DNA from: Nilaparvata lugens
Taxonomy: Eukaryota > Arthropoda > Insecta > Hemiptera > Delphacidae
Direction of reading: 5' to 3'
Length of the DNA: 64,000 bases
Assembly (NCBI RefSeq): GCF_014356525.2
Contig: NC_052515.1
Coordinates: forward strand, 24,373,212 to 24,437,211
The notes under the pieces were generated by a model. That model was not told the DNA's origin. It saw only the letters and a program-made list of their open reading frames with translations, and searched no databases. Each line of letters opens with the position of its first letter. Within the stretch, counting starts at the first letter, position 1. Of this stretch, positions 4,211 to 64,000 are shown in pieces. Made by a program: the position numbers and the translations under genes.

Positions 4211-4780
4211 TCAGATCTCTCAAAGCAAAGTAAAATATTAGACATTAAATTACTTAGGGTCCTTTACTTTGCCTATGTTCAATCGGTGCTGCAATATGGG
4301 TTAGTGGTATGGGGAGGAGCGTATGATGTTTTCATGAATAAAATTTTTACATTTCAAAAAATGATAATAAAAGCAATTCTTAATAAGCCAAGGGCTTTTT
4401 CTAGTAGTGAAACATTTGCCGAATTTAAAGTGATGACAGTACGTCAAATTTATATAAAGAAACTTCTCTATTATGCATGGATGAGGAAGGAGGAATTTAC
4501 AGTGAATAATAACGTTTCTATGTATAACCTGAGAGTTACATCTCATAACATTTATAATATTAACTATTCAGATTTGACAATAGTGAGAAGACAATTGGGG
4601 TATCTTAGCTCAAAAATAATAAATATAATGCCAAATGCATTGTCAGAATATCTTTCTAATAGGGGTAGACAGAGGATGGAACAGATAAATAAGTGGGTGA
4701 TACAAAATTTTTCTTCGACATCAGTCAAATATTATAATTACAAGACTAGTAATTTATTGTTAACTTCGATTTTTTTGTAG
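4211..4780 (+). pseudogene. LINE reverse transcriptase, C-terminal fragment
   Basis: The frame is open from 4211 (after a stop at 4208) to the TAG at 4778, about 189 codons. It reads LLRVLYFAYVQSVLQYG followed by VVWGG, then KMIIKAILNKPR and VRQIYIKKLL. This run is characteristic of the region just C-terminal of the catalytic palm in jockey/CR1-type reverse transcriptases (the 'YFA..QS...YGi.vWGg...qkk..r.il.kpr' pattern). The polymerase YxDD box and the endonuclease lie in the missing 5' part, so no activity is expected. No frameshift or internal stop is seen. Any ATG or GTG inside is irrelevant because the frame enters from the truncated side. Confidence 0.85.
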
Positions 4781-15405: not shown

Positions 15406-16073
15406 GGCTATGTACACATGGTAGCGTCGCACCGCGCGGTGCGACGCGCGTCCAAAATTTTGCAGTTGTACACATGCAAGCGTTTTATACGCGGCGTCCA
15501 CCTCCAGTTTAGCAATGGAACTTGAAGAGGTAACATGTATGTGTCTTGTGTATTGTAGATATAAAGCGAGAAAACGAAGGCAAAGAAACTTTTGCGTTCA
15601 CCCTATTTTGACCATGACCAATAGATTAACGCATGGTGCTTTTGTGACACTTTACCCTAACTTGAGGAAATACGAACCCAAATTATTTAACTATTTGCGA
15701 ATGTCAATTTCATCTTTTGACGAGTTGTTGGAGATCGTAAAAGACGACTTGGCATCAAGTTCTTGTTCTGTTCTTGTAATCAGGACTCGCCATATCCCAT
15801 ATGACACGTCGACTTTTTACTTCTTCTATAAACAATTCTGTGTCAAAATTGTTCATTTCCATGGCTGCACACTGAACAGAGTTGCTGTAAAAACACTACA
15901 CAAAACAAGTGAACTAGATCAAAACTCGCGTCCGACTGCTCTCATGTGTACAGTCCAACTGACTGTAGTGTACTGGGAACTGCGCTGTCGCCGCGCGGTT
16001 CAGGTTGAAAGTTCAGGTTGGTCGTACGCGCGTCTCAAGCCGCGCGGTGCGACGCTATCATGTGTACATAGCC
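15406..16073 (+). mobile_element. PIF/Harbinger derivative, copy 1
   Basis: A 668-bp element flanked by TTA (15403-15405 and 16074-16076), with inverted ends GGCTATGTACACATGGTAGC and the inverse of ATCATGTGTACATAGCC, followed inward by the palindromic GCACCGCGCGGTGC. TTA/TWA target duplication is the PIF/Harbinger signature, and the interior encodes part of a Harbinger transposase. It is internally deleted relative to an autonomous element: the catalytic DDE region is absent. Confidence 0.88.
15515..15760 (+). pseudogene. Harbinger transposase N-terminal fragment
   Basis: After ATGGAACTTGAAGAG the sequence reads a basic stretch KARKRRQRNFCVHPI, then NYLRMSISSFDELLEIV. The Arg-rich segment, then xVHPI, then a 'yLRMS...FDELL' helix is typical of the region before the DDE nuclease domain of PIF/Harbinger (HARBI1-like) transposases. 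The frame remains open to 16090, but past about 15765 it leaves transposase-like sequence and runs into the inverted terminal repeat. A TATTGTAG/ATATAAAG boundary at about 15551-15566 looks like an intron acceptor. No catalytic residues are present. Confidence 0.75.
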
Positions 16074-16097
16074 TTAGGCTTCTCTTCTAAGGCCTTA

Positions 16098-29801: not shown

Positions 29802-30704
29802 CAAAATGCGCCAGAGAAACTTATTTATTTGAAAAACATCCTGTACGTTGAATTGACCGTGTGGAGGGTCAGGAGGGGGCGCATCTGGTGGGGGAAGTTC
29901 TCAAATTTATCCTCCCTCAAGTAAATTGGCCATCATTCTCTGGCCCAGAAAGCAGCGGGCCTTCGCAGTTGAGAGTTTCTTTTCTAATGGTCGATCACCT
30001 TCCGCGCTCGATTTGAAATTCCTCCTCACAGACTCGTTCCTGGCCATAATTCGATTCTGTCGTAGGTTAACTAATTTCAGGAGTGTGGAAGTATCGCTGA
30101 ACCCAGAAATAGACTTCAACAAACCATCAGAACTCCAGAAAATATCAACAGTTTAGGCAGTCAGTTGTGCGTTCTCCAAGGCGTTCGGCTCGCAAACACG
30201 CAGCTGTTATAGCAATTTCTGACTCCACTGTTCGACGAATTTTCCATGAAGACCTTCAACTTCATCCCTATAAATTGGCTGTTGTGCAAGAATCGACTGA
30301 ATGCGATTTTTTTGCCCGTCAAAATGCATGTGATATGCTGATTGACATCATGCCTGAAGACGCGGTCATTTTTCTAGTGACAAGGCTCATTTCCGCATGC
30401 GATTGTTCAGTGGGTTATTTGGAATCTCTGTTTTATGTCGATCGACCACGGACCATAGCACACCTCAAGAACAACATTCGCGACGCCATTCCCAACATAC
30501 CGATTGATATTCTGCAACGAAATTTCAAAAATCGACCTCATCAGCGTATGCACAATGGAGGTCGCCATTGATTTGATCTCATTTTCAAGACTGCATGGAA
30601 AAAAATTGAGATATTGTATTCTCATAAAAAAGATTAAAACAATATCTGAAGTACTTTTGTTTTTATTGACCTTTCAAATAAGTAAGTTTCTCTGGCGCAC
30701 TTTG
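29802..30704 (+). mobile_element. Internally deleted mariner-like transposon
   Basis: A ~903-bp element with ~30-bp inverted ends: CAAAATGCGCCAGAGAAACT (left) and AGTTTCTCTGGCGCACTTTG (right). TA follows the right end (30705-30706); the left target reads CA, presumably mutated. The interior encodes both ends of a mariner-family transposase with the catalytic middle deleted. The ends are well preserved, so it could still be mobilised in trans. Confidence 0.85.
29926..30571 (+). pseudogene. Mariner transposase, frameshifted and internally deleted
   Basis: The N-terminal part (29926-30128) reads QRAFAVESFFSNGRSPSA and LTDSFLA, a mariner helix-turn-helix region. The frame changes at about 30129 (RTPENI) and again at about 30146, entering QFRQSVVRSPRRSARKHAAV and STVRRIFHEDLQLHPYK, typical of the second DNA-binding segment and linker. 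After PEDAVIF the usual DEAHF-type catalytic segment is missing, and the frame jumps to a C-terminal motif YVDRPRTIAHLKNNIR and ILQRNF ending in GRH. The DDD/DDE triad is absent. Both frame changes are equivalent to a single lost base. Confidence 0.85.
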
Positions 30705-54699: not shown

Positions 54700-55150
54700 G
54701 ATACACATTTCCAGTTCCGTTGCAAACGAAGATAAGGATGTCTCGTTCCGTTGCAAATTGTGATACAGATGCCAAAGAAACTATAATAAAGGTGCCTCGT
54801 TCCGTTGCAAATTTTGCTATAGATGCCTCGTTACATTTTAAACTATGATGATGGTCTCGATCTGTTGCAAATGGTGATTAGGATGTACCGTTCCGTTGCA
54901 AATTGTGATACAGATGCCACAAAAACTATGATAAAGATGCCTCGTTCCAGTGCAAATTTTGTTACAGATGCCTCGTTGCGTTCTTATGAAAAACTATGAT
55001 AAACTATGATAAGGATGTTCCGATGCTGAAAATGCTGGTGATAAGGATGTACCGTTCCGTTGCAAATTGTGATACAGATGCCTCGTTACGTTGCAAACGA
55101 TGATGAGGATCTCTTCGAGATACAGATCATTCGAATACCGATGTCTTGTT
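54700..55150 (+). repeat. Irregular short-repeat array, CCGTTGCAAA units
   Basis: GTTCCGTTGCAAA or close variants occur at about 54713, 54744, 54799, 54890 and 55043, interspersed with GATACAGATGCC, CTATGATAAAGATGCCTCGT and GATAAGGATGT. Units of about 30-40 bp are arranged in a higher-order pattern. The array lies just outside the left arm of the Foldback/MULE element and may be its outer subterminal repeats. Confidence 0.7.
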
Positions 55151-55157
55151 CGGCTCC

Positions 55158-55510
55158 GTGAACTTGTAGTGCACAAGCCCGAAAAAATTTGAAAAAAATT
55201 GACAATAAACTATGAATTTTGTGTCAGCAGAATATCCAAAAATTAAATTTTGTACAAGCACCGTTTTTTTTTACACGCATTTGAAGTCGCGGTCAAGGTC
55301 ATTTTTCAATGCTAATTTCCCTATGCTGGAAGTGTGAACTTGTAGTGCACATGTCAGAAAAAATCCGAAAAAAATTGACAATAAACTACGAATTTTGTGT
55401 CGTCTGAATATGCAAAAATCGAATTTTGTACAAGCACCGTTTTTTTTTTAGACGCTTTTGAAGATGGAGTCAAGGTCATACATATCATTGATTATTTACC
55501 TATGCTGGCT
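55158..55510 (+). repeat. Two 176-bp outer units of the left arm
   Basis: GTGAACTTGTAGTGCACA begins at 55158 and 55334. Each unit has AAAATTGACAATAAACTA, GAATTTTGTGTC and TTTTGTACAAGCACCGTTTT. The last motif is shared with the inner ~177-bp units, but the rest differs, so these are a distinct outer subtype. Confidence 0.8.
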
Positions 55511-55599
55511 ATCTGCCAGCTACTCTACCGCTCATGCAGGCGTGATAATACGGTTTGTATTACTTTGAATGAATAAAATACTGTATCCAAGTCAAAAAC

Positions 55600-56890
55600 A
55601 TGATATATTGAATCATCTTCAACCACACATGAATTATGTACAAGCACAGTTTTTTCACGAAAAAAAATCAAAGTTCAATATTTGTAATAGTATTACAATG
55701 GGAATTCTTGAATAATCAACAAAAAAAGTCAAGTGCATGGCAATTATACTTTTATTCTGGACTTAATGAAATGATGAACATATATGGAATCACTTCTTTT
55801 CACAAATGAATTTTGTACAAGCACAGTTTTCACGAAAAAAGATTCCAAAGTTTAATACCATTTATAGGTATCCTCTTGGGAATTCTTGAATAATCAACCA
55901 CAAAAGTCAAGTGCATGGCATTTCTCCTGTTATTCTGGACTGAATGCAATGGTGAATATATATTGAATCATCTCTGATCACGAATGAATTTTGAACAAGC
56001 ACAGTTTTCACGAAAAAAATTCCAAAGTCTTATTCCAGTTATAGTGATACTATGAGGAATTCTTGAATAATCATCAACAAAAGTCAAGTGCATGGCATTT
56101 CTTTTGTTATTCTGGACTAAATGCAATGTTGAACATATATTGAATCATTCCTGATCACGAATGAATTTTGTACAAGCACAGTTTTCACGAAAAAAAATTC
56201 CAAAGTTTATTCCAGTTATATTGATACTATGGGGAATTCTTGGAAAATCTACCACAAAAGTCAAGTGCATGGCATATCATCTAATATTCTGGACTAAATG
56301 CAATGTTGAACATATATTGAATCATTCCTGATCACGAATGAATTTTGTACAAGCTCAGTTTTCACGAAAAAAAATCCCAAAGTTTTTTCCAGTTATAGTG
56401 ATACTATGGGGAATTCGTGGAAAATCTACCACAGAAGTCAAGTGCATGACATATTTTCTGTTATTCTGAACTGAATGCAATGTTGAACATATTTTGAATT
56501 ATTCTTGAACATGAATGAATTTTGTACAAGCGCAGTTTTCACGAAAAAAAATTCCAAAGTTTTTTTCCAGTTATAGTGATACTATAAGTAATTCTTGGAA
56601 AATCAACCACAAAAGTTAAGTGCATGGCATTTCTCCTGTTATTCTGGACTAAATGCAATGGTGAATATATATAGAATCAATCCTGATCATGAATAAATTT
56701 TGTTCAAGTACAGTTTTCACGTAAAAGAATTCCAAAGTCTTATTCCAGTTATAGTGATACTATAAGTAATTCTTGGAAAATCAACCTCATAAGTCAAGTG
56801 CATGGCATTTCTCCTGTTATTCTGGACTGAATGCAATGGTGAATATATATTGAATCATTCCTGATCACGAATGAATTTTGTACAAGCACA
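55600..56890 (+). repeat. Left arm: array of ~177-bp units
   Basis: The anchor ACAAGCACAGT (or a one-base variant) occurs at 55640, 55817, 55995, 56172, 56349, 56526, 56704 and 56882, a period of 177-178 bp. Each unit carries GAATGAATTTTGTACAAGC, TTCCAGTTATAGTGATACTA, GTCAAGTGCATGGCAT and ATTCTGGACT.AATGCAATG. The final unit breaks off in the first codons of the transposase frame. Confidence 0.93.
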
Positions 56891-58104
56891 GTTTTCAACC
56901 ACAATGGCTGTGGTTATGGCTAAATACGTTCCACCATACAGCAATTTCATTAAAGATGTATGCTATGATAAATTGAATGTTCATTTCTGGAGCGCTCCTC
57001 AGATACATGCAGAACGAAAATATTGTATGGAGAACGAGTGCTCCAGAATAATTATAGATGCGACTGGCCAAGTTGTAAAGAACGTTATCAGGCCGAATGG
57101 GGAGAGATCTTCCCATATAATGCTATATGAAATCGTCATACATGACAAGCAAAAAAAATCTTTTTTTCCTGTAGGAAGCATGCTCTCTGAAAAACAAGAC
57201 ACAGAGACTATACGACATTGGCTGAATGCGTGGATGAGAGATGGTGCAATGATTCCAAAAGAAATTGTGACAGACATGTCCTTAGCTCTTACAAATGCTT
57301 GTATTCAGGCATTCACCATATGATATCGTTGGAGGAGTATCTCAATAAATGTGAGATCATATAAAGGAAGAAACGATGGACTCTATTCCTCTACCTGCTT
57401 GTTTTATCAGGTATGATGTGGCTCATACAATGAAACTTTTCTCTATGTTCAGTAGTTTAAAAGGGCAGCTGAGAAGAACAAGACATTTTTATTTAAAGTC
57501 ATTGGCTCTTGCTCTCCAATGTACGGATTTGAAGGACTTGAGACAAATTTTGAAGTGTATCTTAACAGTTTGCCTCTCGGAAACGGAAGGAGATGAAGTT
57601 GAAACAGGAGCCCCAACTCCATGTGAAGAGAGCAAGTCATACTTGCAACAAAGAATTGGTAGAATTGCTGATCACTTGTTACTAGAAGAGTGTACTGAAG
57701 AAGAGGAAACGGGAAGAGTAAAAGAAGAAAATGAAGTAGAAAAAGTTGGAGGAGAGAAATTTGAAAGTCAGGAGTGGAAGAAATCAAAGTATGGTGCTGG
57801 GTTTAGAGTTTGGGTGCAAACGATAGTGGAACATGTGGAAAAAAATAAAGAGGGATCTCGAGGGAATCAGCAATTTCTTCCGAAATTGGTTGTGAATATA
57901 CTGAATGTCTCAAAAACAATACCTCTATGGACTGCAATAATGGTTCCACACTTTGGAATTGGAGAGGTAACCGCGAGCAGCACAGCTAGTGAAGGTAATT
58001 TCAACAATTTGAAAAACCGAATTTTTCAAAGAGGAAATTACCAGCTCGATTGGATGATTTCCTCCTCACATACATACCAGCTCTATCCGGGCAAATGGAA
58101 TTGA
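56871..58104 (+). pseudogene. MULE-type (FB/NOF-like) DDE transposase core, frameshifted
   Basis: Predicted to cut and join transposon ends. The first frame (56871-57323) contains RIIIDATGQVVKNV (first Asp, residue 63) and EIVTDMSLALTNA (second Asp, residue 135). At about 57320 the reading moves to MISLEEYLNKCEII, then near 57362 to the frame beginning at 57376, which holds ACFIRYDVAH and, after a long acidic insertion, STASEGNFNNLKNRIF with the probable catalytic Glu (residue 206 of that frame). D-D-E with an IDATG first motif and 'SE.NF..LK' third motif fits MULE/Foldback transposases. Each of the three breaks, including one at a T run (58022-58026), equals one lost base. The usual N-terminal DNA-binding region is absent: the frame starts inside the last arm unit, at an ATG that belongs to the repeat. 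Confidence 0.8.
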
Positions 58105-59318
58105 AGAGAAAGGGAGAGGACATTCCCTCACAAGAAATTGAGGAATCGAGAAAATATGATAAATGCTCTATTTGTAACGGTAAATGTGAAAATAACACCA
58201 AAGAGGATGATAATCTCATATGCTCTTCATGTTCAAACCTCAGTAACGAAGAGCAACATAGAAGATTGTCGCTCAAACATGTTGAGAATTGGCGAGGTTT
58301 AGCACTAGTTAAGACGAGAAAAAGAAAATCACATCTCGAACGAAACAGTGATTGGTCACATGTAGACCTGAGGACCAAAAAACCATACATACCAATCGGT
58401 GTTTTAAAAAATGGAAACTTATCAACTCTTTTACCTCTGAAAATTGATGGAAAGCTGTATGTATTAACAAACACGTGTGCCTTTGATTCCATTTTGCAAA
58501 TACTTACATCCTCTTATTGCGACAGTACCCTTTTCAAAAATGTGGTAGAAGAAGCTGCTGATGAATGGCCATTGGGTGAGATGATCATTGAAATCGTAAA
58601 GAAAGGAATCAGCGCTGCTACATACAGAAAAAGGGCAAAAATCCTTTCTCAAATGGAAAACATTACCGAAAGCCTAGGGATCTATACTATTCATGCTGAA
58701 TGCAATGTGTCATCAGTAATGATTCCTCTAGTGCTGAGAGAGCTCCCAGCGGGTTACGAGAATCGTAAATGCACTTCGCCAACCTGTCCAAGGCCAGAAA
58801 GACACATTCCAATTATAAAGGTGGAACTGGGAATACCAAATAATGGAATCTGCGACTTACAAAAATTCATCGAGCATTATTTATTGAAGGTCCGAGCAAC
58901 AGGCTGTTTCGAAATGTTACCAGTAGGTAACTTTGAAACGAGTTTGAACAAAATAATGGATCCGGAAATTTCAAATCACCCGTTATGTAGTGGAAGCCGT
59001 GAAGTCGAAGTTAATCTCCTGAAAACCCATCTCGTTCTGGACATAACAGAAGACAATATAGAGAGATTATCTCAGTGTTCGTTTGGATTGAGAGATCTTC
59101 CCAAACAACTGCACCTTCAGAATGTAATTTATCATCTACGGGGTGTTGTTGGATTTCAGGGTATAGGATCTGAAGTGACGTCAATTGGTCACTACAAAGC
59201 GTACTGCTTTCGGCTCAACGAAAAATGGGAAGTCTTTGATGATTTGAAAGAGAAGTCCTCTGATACATCAGGACTTGAGAAGATTGATAGCTGCCATTTG
59301 ATCATTTATACAATTTGA
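58050..59318 (+). CDS. Transposase C-terminal half with USP-like cysteine peptidase domain
   Basis: A 422-codon open frame continuing the transposase after the third frameshift; in the correct frame its start reads LPARLDDFLLTYIP, the segment expected just after the catalytic Glu, so it is not a separate gene and the TTG at 58050 is not a real start. It has a CSIC (39-42) and CSSC (58-61) pair, a probable zinc site; a basic stretch KTRKRKSHLER; a Cys box LTNTCAFDSILQIL (Cys143); a CTSPTC motif (241-246); and a His box SIGHYKAYCFRLNEKW followed by FDD (His381, Asp397/398). The Cys box and GHY...W..FDD pattern are those of ubiquitin-specific proteases (C19). No stops or frameshifts occur inside. 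Deubiquitinase or SUMO-protease activity is inference. It ends at a TGA at 59316, followed by non-coding sequence. Confidence 0.75.
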   Translation: MDDFLLTYIPALSGQMELKRKGEDIPSQEIEESRKYDKCSICNGKCENNTKEDDNLICSSCSNLSNEEQHRRLSLKHVENWRGLALVKTRKRKSHLERNSDWSHVDLRTKKPYIPIGVLKNGNLSTLLPLKIDGKLYVLTNTCAFDSILQILTSSYCDSTLFKNVVEEAADEWPLGEMIIEIVKKGISAATYRKRAKILSQMENITESLGIYTIHAECNVSSVMIPLVLRELPAGYENRKCTSPTCPRPERHIPIIKVELGIPNNGICDLQKFIEHYLLKVRATGCFEMLPVGNFETSLNKIMDPEISNHPLCSGSREVEVNLLKTHLVLDITEDNIERLSQCSFGLRDLPKQLHLQNVIYHLRGVVGFQGIGSEVTSIGHYKAYCFRLNEKWEVFDDLKEKSSDTSGLEKIDSCHLIIYTI

Positions 59319-62334: not shown

Positions 62335-64000
62335 AACATTAATTCATGATCAGGAATGATTCTATATATAACTTATGTTGAACAATGCAATCAGTCCATA
62401 ATTACAGACAAAAAACAATGAACTTGACTTTTGTGGTTGATTTTTCAAGAATTCCCTTGAGTAGTCCTCAATTAGTATTGAATTTTGACATTTTTTCTCG
62501 TGAAAACTGTACTTGTAAAAAAATCATTCGTGATCAGGAATGATTCTTTATATGTTCATCATTGCATTCAAACCAGGATAACAGGAGAAATGCACTTGAC
62601 TTTTGTAGTTGATAATTCAAGAATTCCTCATATTATCACTATAACTGGAATAAGACTTTGGAGTTTTTTTACGTGAAAACTGTGCTTGTACAAAATTCAT
62701 TCGTGATCGGGAATGATCCTATATATATCCACAATTGCATTCAGTCCAGAAAAACAAAAGATACGTCATGCACTTGACTTTTGTGGTTTATTATTCAAGA
62801 ATTCCCCATAGTATCACTATAACTGGAATTAAATTTTGGAATTTTTTTTTGTGAAAACTGTGATTGTACAAAATTCAATCATGATCAGGAATAATTCTAT
62901 ATATGTTCATCATTGTATTCAGTCCATAATAACTGGTGGAATGCCATGCACTTGACTTTTGTGGTTGATAATTCAAGAATTCCTCATAGCATCACTATAA
63001 CTGCAATAAGACTTTGGAATTTTTTTCGTGAAAACTGTGCTTGTACAAAATTCATTCGTGATCAGGAATTATTCTTCATATATATTCATCATTGCATTCA
63101 GTCCAGAATAACAGGAGAAATGCCATGAACTTGACTTTTGTGGTTGATTTCCCAAGAAATCCTTATAGTATCACTATAACTGGAATTAAACTTTGGAATT
63201 TTTTTTTGTGAAAACTGTGCTTGTACAAAATTCATTCGTGATCAGGAATTATTCTTCATATATATTCATCATTGCATTCAAACCAGAATAACAAGAGAAA
63301 TGCATGCACTTGACTTTTGTAGTTGATTATTCGAGAATTCCCCAAAGTATCACTATAACTAATATAGAAATATGATTTTTTTTTTGTAAAAACTGTGCTT
63401 GTACAAAATTCATTCGTGATCAGGAATGATTCAATATATGTTCAACATTGCATTCAGTTCAGAATAACAAAAGAAATGCCATGCACTTGACTTTTGTGGT
63501 TGATTATTCAAGAATTCCTCATACTATAACTAGAACAAGATTTTGGAATTTTTTTCGTGAAAACTGTGCTTGTACAAAATTCATTCGTGATCAGGAATGA
63601 TTCAATATATGTTCAACATTGCATTCAGTTCAGAATAACAAAAGAAATGCCATGCACTTGACTTCTGTGGTAGATTTTCCACGAATTCCCCATAGTATCA
63701 CTATAACTGGAAAAAACTTTGGAATTTTATTTCGTGAAAACTGTGCTTGTACAAAATTCATTCATGTTCAAGAATAATTCAATATATGTTCAACATTGCA
63801 TTCAGTTCAGAATGAGAGAAGAAATGCCATGCACTTGACTTTCGTAGTAGATTTTCCAAGAATTCCCCATAGTATCACTATAACTGGAATAAAACTTTGG
63901 AATTTTTTTTCGTGAAAACTGTGCTTGTTCAAAATTCATTCGTGATCAGAGATGATTCAATATATGTTCAACATTGCATTCAGTTCAGAATAACAAAAGA
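62335..64000 (-). repeat. Right arm: inverted array of ~177-bp units, runs off the window
   Basis: TGAAAACTGT (or a one-base variant) recurs at 62501, 62674, 62852, 63029, 63209, 63387, 63558, 63735 and 63913, spacing 171-180 bp. Units contain CAAAATTCATTCGTGATCAG, TTCA.CATTGCATTCAGT and CACTTGACTTTTGTGGTTGA, the inverse of the left arm. Period jitter comes from the T run before TTCGTGAAAA or TTTGTGAAAA. No gene; short frames across it are repeat artefacts. Confidence 0.93.

Follow-up and report, generated by a model that had tools for sequence, protein, structure and literature searches.

A USP-like cysteine peptidase at the C-terminus of NOF/foldback-type MULE transposases from Nilaparvata lugens and other animals

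The 64,000-nucleotide stretch of the Nilaparvata lugens genome analysed here (contig NC_052515.1, positions 24,373,212 to 24,437,211; 'the window' below) contains a MULE DNA transposon of the NOF/foldback type, the copy here having decayed. The transposase of this element is one long protein, with a cysteine-containing N-terminus, an IS256/MULE-like DDE domain, a linker that in some members bears a zinc knuckle and, at the C-terminus, a predicted cysteine isopeptidase with the fold of ubiquitin-specific proteases (USPs). Intact single frames elsewhere in the genome, as well as homologues in other animals, carry the DDE domain and the peptidase in the same protein. As judged from alignments and a predicted structure, the peptidase has a USP fold with a conserved candidate triad of Cys, His and Asp/Asn and with conserved finger cysteines. 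We consider it somewhat probable that the domain is an active isopeptidase and aids movement by stripping off ubiquitin or a ubiquitin-like modifier. The conserved active site suggests that removal of ubiquitin or a similar tag may be part of the movement or survival of the element.

In the window, the peptidase lies on the forward strand in the third piece of the transposase frame (57999-59318, 439 amino acids), which, according to the open reading frame (ORF) list and Pfam, runs from the end of the transposase through a zinc knuckle and the USP-like peptidase to a stop codon. The zinc-knuckle-like CxxC...CxxC linker (58164-58232, located by motif mapping) occupies the position of a Znf_SCAND3 finger in some homologues; the Pfam scan of this linker gave DUF4428 alone, with an E-value (E) of 0.06, under the cut-off. 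A conserved linker motif, ENWRG (58284-58298, from homologue alignments and motif mapping), precedes the peptidase, whose confidently modelled part spans 58386-59315 (AlphaFold and structure searches). Alignment and motif mapping place the candidate catalytic Cys at 58476-58478, in an NTCAFDS box (58470-58490), and the candidate catalytic His at 59190-59192, in GHYKAY (59187-59204). The candidate third residue, the Asp of FDD, is aligned at 59238-59240 in VFDDL (59232-59246), and the fingers-subdomain cysteines at 58770, 58785, 58905 and 58986 (58770-58988) are probable zinc ligands. Pfam UCH matches the frame with E 1.5e-5 and 25.2 bits, over the cut-off of 23.9, and a Cys-box/His-box pattern finds this single match in all six frames of the window, a weak control given that the pattern derives from the family itself. 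An earlier, sequence-only reading had put Cys143, His381, Asp397 and the CxxC motifs at just these positions and had proposed a comparison with Pfam UCH, which now yields a match. It had also given the span of the fused protein as 58050-59318: the end holds, the start does not, as 58050 is no start codon and the open frame begins at 57999.

An AlphaFold model of the peptidase (pLDDT 82.3, pTM 0.81) predicts a USP fold with palm, thumb and fingers. The A3 model alignment comprised 26 of the 29 proteins from the homologue searches (P0011, P0026 and P0029 were left out). The best 50 of 417 Foldseek rows, together with the 50 VIA matches listed, are all USP-fold chains, with 13-21% identity across the structure-match rows. 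One of them, 6qw6_U, is annotated as a tri-snRNP chain, which we take to be USP39; USPL1 and the PAN2 pseudo-hydrolase are also present among the listed matches. When the family profile A3 was compared with Protein Data Bank (PDB) sequences, 40 of the 43 matches up to E 1 were USPs or USPL1, the best being USP36 (2.3e-7). The family profile was needed here: phmmer with the single window protein against PDB returned chance SRP54 matches alone (E 1.8), and the NCBIfam scan gave chance matches only.

A less probable alternative is a USPL1-type (C98) SUMO isopeptidase, which would take SUMO off the transposase or off silencing factors at the element that depend on SUMO. Three features recall USPL1, namely the loop before the His strand, which in profile alignments is shorter than in ubiquitin USPs (a gap of ~14 residues against USP36 and 10 against USP8), the Asp after the Cys, and weak C98 matches of the element family. 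However, the profile prefers ubiquitin USPs (2.3e-7 for USP36 versus 0.0036 for USPL1), and all Pfam Peptidase_C98 matches fall under the cut-off, the best reaching 19.5 bits versus 27 among the members scanned and an intact 1,083-amino-acid protein from the same genome. Moreover, the His box reads GHY in 20 of 23 proteins and GHF in the other 3, whereas USPL1 has Phe after the His, as a passage of one paper states (PMC8983731).

The candidate active site was followed in an alignment of 40 rows, made of four copies from the N. lugens genome and 36 of the 60 proteins found. Cys stands in its column in 32 of the 35 rows with a letter (exceptions P0045, P0054 and P0032); one of the 32, in P0047, is there by chance, as this protein already ends before the peptidase domain. 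His is present in 27 of 31 rows, the exceptions being P0005 and P0007, which end there, and the apparently chimeric models P0032 and P0054. By sequence position, the third residue in the 27 His rows is Asp (23) or Asn (4), the two third residues used by USPs according to the passage cited above (PMC8983731). The four finger cysteines are conserved in 25, 25, 23 and 24 of 25 rows, with the sister copy C15_45M representing the window. In the 25 rows that have both Cys and His, the near-invariant positions comprise the four finger cysteines, one thumb Arg, the Cys-box Gln and the neighbours of the Cys, namely a preceding Thr and a following Phe and Asp. A motif search of the 60 proteins, many of which are fragments, found the Cys box in 45, the His box in 23 and both in 21, including proteins from Rhagoletis, Dryococelus, Pyrocoelia, Knipowitschia and Siganus. 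This pattern bears on another reading, in which the domain, dead like the PAN2 pseudo-hydrolase, would not cut but would recruit the transposase to chromatin by docking ubiquitin or a modifier. PAN2 is indeed among the structural matches, but Cys, His and Asp/Asn are retained in insect and fish members, where binding alone would have no need of them, and we regard a binding-only domain as improbable.

A single protein carries both DDE domain and peptidase in a firefly (P0049) as well as in a fish (P0038); two more proteins, P0015 of a fruit fly and P0022 of an aphid, do so in part. Pfam UCH also scores above the cut-off in P0001 and P0027, and 7 of 31 members match it up to E 0.1. The sequence-only reading had looked to a papain-like USP fold and to conserved Cys and His; the first is found in the predicted structure and the structure searches, and the second in the homologues that cover those positions. 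Some relatives were checked for a missing peptidase. Two of them, P0042 and P0047, end within the DDE part and two more, P0033 and P0059, in the linker, which is also where P0045 departs from the family; P0032 and P0054 continue as sequence of other proteins and resemble chimeric gene models. In P0013, the N-terminus lacks the DDE residues. Separately, a Znf_SCAND3-type finger lies in the linker between DDE domain and peptidase in P0002, P0005 (E 1.4e-10), P0025 and P0028, and by eye a similar linker motif is seen in L046, a third, diverged subfamily of the N. lugens genome. Two further records stand apart. P0052 (Podarcis lilfordi, 725 amino acids) is an open, NOF-like frame in which, by alignment, the DDE acids are replaced by Gly, Ser and Lys and no peptidase follows; this lizard frame may have been domesticated as a host gene, or may be a copy in decay. 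P0021, in a rust-fungus record (Austropuccinia psidii MF-1, 9,076-bp contig), has 81% identity to P0020 and 39% to an aphid protein, which points to horizontal transfer or contamination. A scan of viral contigs gave 10 stretches with the pattern, none of them confirmed.

Copies in the genome are either near-identical or highly diverged, and we therefore compared codon-position identity rather than dN/dS, using the 921-amino-acid frame of C15_45M (A), the 1,083-amino-acid frame (B) and the third subfamily, L046 (C). For A-B, A-C and B-C, respectively, the peptidase has 60, 56 and 54% identical second positions, 12/37, 5/18 and 9/17 identical four-fold sites, and 38, 32 and 34% identical amino acids. 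In the DDE domain, second positions are 67, 57 and 63% identical and four-fold sites 14/54, 13/39 and 10/40; in the linker, second positions are 51, 50 and 46% identical and amino acids 28, 26 and 21%. On these figures, the peptidase appears to be kept nearly as well as the DDE domain and modestly better than the linker. The invariant catalytic and finger residues, as aligned, are a stronger sign of selection than codon-position identity.

The peptidase frame has at least 102 matches in the 1.085-Gb genome. The sister copy C15_45M (C15, 45 Mb) holds the DDE domain and peptidase in one frame of 921 amino acids, open to its start with the N-terminus missing. In a related subfamily, three copies (C12 at 15 Mb, C15 at 100 Mb and C15 at 54 Mb) have a single frame of 1,083 amino acids from first Met to stop. 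All three of these proteins end directly after the peptidase, so that nothing lies downstream to be released. This speaks against a self-processing protease that cleaves the transposase protein and not an isopeptide bond; although a terminal position in one long protein would suit such a role, the structures nearest to the peptidase are isopeptidases and we hold self-processing to be very unlikely. The recent, functionless capture of a host ubiquitin-protease exon by one copy can be set aside as next to negligible: the genome has 91 UCH-type matches outside the element and gene capture by MULEs is known, but the three intact copies, the same-protein fusions in P0049 and P0038 and the partial ones in P0015 and P0022 amount to an architecture shared with other animals. 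As a separate observation, the last 74 residues recur as dispersed short matches of ~44% identity (C15:38691129, C2:29007734, C2:64259013, C5:62077101 and others), as if the 3' end fragment of a relative had multiplied independently.

The element in the window extends from 55152 to 65126, with 1,126 bp outside the window, and is flanked by a perfect 9-bp duplication, GTCTTGTTC, at 55143-55151 and, past the window end, 65127-65135; the terminal sequences directly inside the duplication are identical at 25 of 25 bases. Self-comparison defines the left foldback terminal inverted repeat (55152-56897), whose inner part (55603-56897) consists of about seven tandem 177-bp units. Its right counterpart, identified by inverted match and flanking DNA, covers 62338-64000 and continues to 65126, and the inverted match of 55151-56895 with 63389-65127 has 93% identity. 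On the forward strand, the ORF list and alignment with C15_45M define two transposase pieces upstream of the peptidase frame: piece 1 (56865-57323) holds the first two DDE acids (IIDATG and VTDMS), and piece 2 (57355-58104), shifted in frame, holds the rest of the DDE domain with its Glu motif, STASEGNFNNLKN. The same region, spread over three frames in the window, is open in C15_45M, and hence two frameshifts part DDE domain from peptidase in the window. The fusion proposed by the sequence-only reading thus stands for intact frames and homologues, and not for the window copy as it is now.

Long, internally repetitive inverted repeats flank the window copy and four of seven others (C15_34M, C12_15M, C15_100M and C15_54M); in C9a, C9b and C15_45M, no long inverted repeats were found to flank the frame within 16 kb. 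Two of the three intact 1,083-amino-acid frames sit cleanly between foldback repeats, and at C15_54M one inverted match overlaps the frame end, which indicates that this locus is rearranged. At C15:100.92 Mb (L042/L043), the intact transposase frame is separated from the right inverted repeat by a frame of 659 amino acids that, by eye, resembles a non-LTR (long terminal repeat) endonuclease-reverse transcriptase. Elsewhere in the window, three forward-strand open frames resemble, by eye, a Tc1/mariner-type transposase fragment (30113-30571), the start of a PIF/Harbinger nuclease in the middle of the frame (15425-16090) and the end of a non-LTR reverse transcriptase (4211-4780); these resemblances are presumptive.

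As for the class of the transposase, the structural model of the DDE part predicts an RNase H-like fold of the IS256 type, with ISCth4 as its best match, followed by the P element and Hermes transposases. The source name of P0047 is 'MULE transposase domain-containing protein'. MULE target duplications range from 8 to 11 bp. Both elements examined fall there, with 9 bp at the window and 8 bp at C12_15M, and 9 bp is named as the common length in a passage of PMC3169594. In a Pfam scan of the 1,083-amino-acid protein, FLYWCH, the N-terminal domain of Phantom MULEs, gave no match up to E 1. The cysteine-containing N-terminal region has no Pfam match, and our guess is that it binds DNA.

In our preferred reading, the peptidase would be active and would be carried by the transposase to the element ends. 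There, either the transposase itself or proteins at the ends might be cleared of ubiquitin or a ubiquitin-like modifier, and the transposition complex would thereby be shielded from degradation or silencing, which would help the element to move. A self-stabilizing or silencing-countering role of this kind is conjectural, and the substrate may also be of the SUMO type. Silencing by piRNAs depends on SUMO. A broader and rather doubtful proposal is that NOF/foldback transposases are bifunctional clade-wide across animals and bring along an isopeptidase of their own, which takes off ubiquitin or SUMO at the chromatin of the element. Silencing that depends on either modifier, for instance by the nuclear piRNA pathway, would then be disarmed precisely where the element moves.

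Several points weigh against the reading of an active isopeptidase in a MULE transposase. The window copy itself is broken. Pfam MULE (PF10551) is weak in the window (E 0.022, 15.6 bits versus a cut-off of 27.6) and finds no match at E 0.1 among 31 members, and most other homologues scanned fall under the UCH cut-off or match nothing. The structural model is based on 27 sequences. The selection signal is modest, with a gap of just 6-9 points between peptidase and linker, and the B-C four-fold sites (9/17 identical) are not clearly saturated. Lastly, ubiquitin is not assured as the substrate, given that the loop ahead of the His strand is shortened relative to ubiquitin USPs.

Unrelated transposons have repeatedly gained ubiquitin/SUMO proteases (Ulp1, OTU and C19), and no tested reason is given in the part of the literature covered here (PMC2836005). 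The present family, conserved in animals as far apart as insects and fish, adds a further case, and does so in a classical group of transposons. Because three copies are intact and have a complete triad, the role of the peptidase in movement, transposase lifetime and silencing becomes testable. Modifier proteases in transposons are already known; C19 in NOF/foldback MULE transposases is apparently undescribed. In the open-access literature searched (a scope outside which Repbase and the Phantom report fall), we found no description of a peptidase in NOF or of NOF/foldback MULE transposases that regularly include a C19 domain, and in the portion of PMC6446971 covered the terms protease, peptidase, ubiquitin, Ulp1, OTU and foldback do not occur.

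Among known systems, NOF (FB-NOF, MULE superfamily) is reached through the transposase part, which found the fish relatives P0042 ('NOF-FB transposable element') and P0054 ('120.7 kDa protein in NOF-FB transposable element'); these two source names alone suggest a homology to Drosophila NOF. Like NOF elements, the window element has inverted repeats of the foldback type, built from tandem units, together with a 9-bp duplication. Neither fish record shows a peptidase, however, with P0042 ending in the DDE part and P0054 entering an unrelated protein. The USPs of MEROPS C19 (USP36, USP30, USP12/46 and USP8) have the same fold, the Cys and His boxes and the four finger cysteines, but the element family has CxFD where the aligned USP row has CYMN, and its loop before the His strand is shorter. 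Ulp1 (C48) in MULEs (plant KIU/Kaonashi, hydra and lancelet) likewise shows a modifier peptidase travelling with a MULE, as described in passages of PMC2836005 and PMC13317346; that peptidase is of another family, and Arabidopsis KIU is one of the three genes of its element, whereas here the peptidase is fused to the transposase. The review passage adds that Ulp1-bearing VANDAL elements escape silencing and that the role of Ulp1 is unknown (PMC13317346). Fusions are also found in Ginger1 with OTU or Ulp1, domains that the Ginger paper suggests to act in transposition, perhaps via DNA repair, and in Trichomonas XP_001314237.1 (transposase_11 with Peptidase C19), both from a passage of PMC2836005. 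As in the N. lugens element, a ubiquitin/SUMO protease is there fused to a transposase, but these transposases are Gypsy-integrase-like or transposase_11 (pfam01609) and not of the NOF/MULE type.
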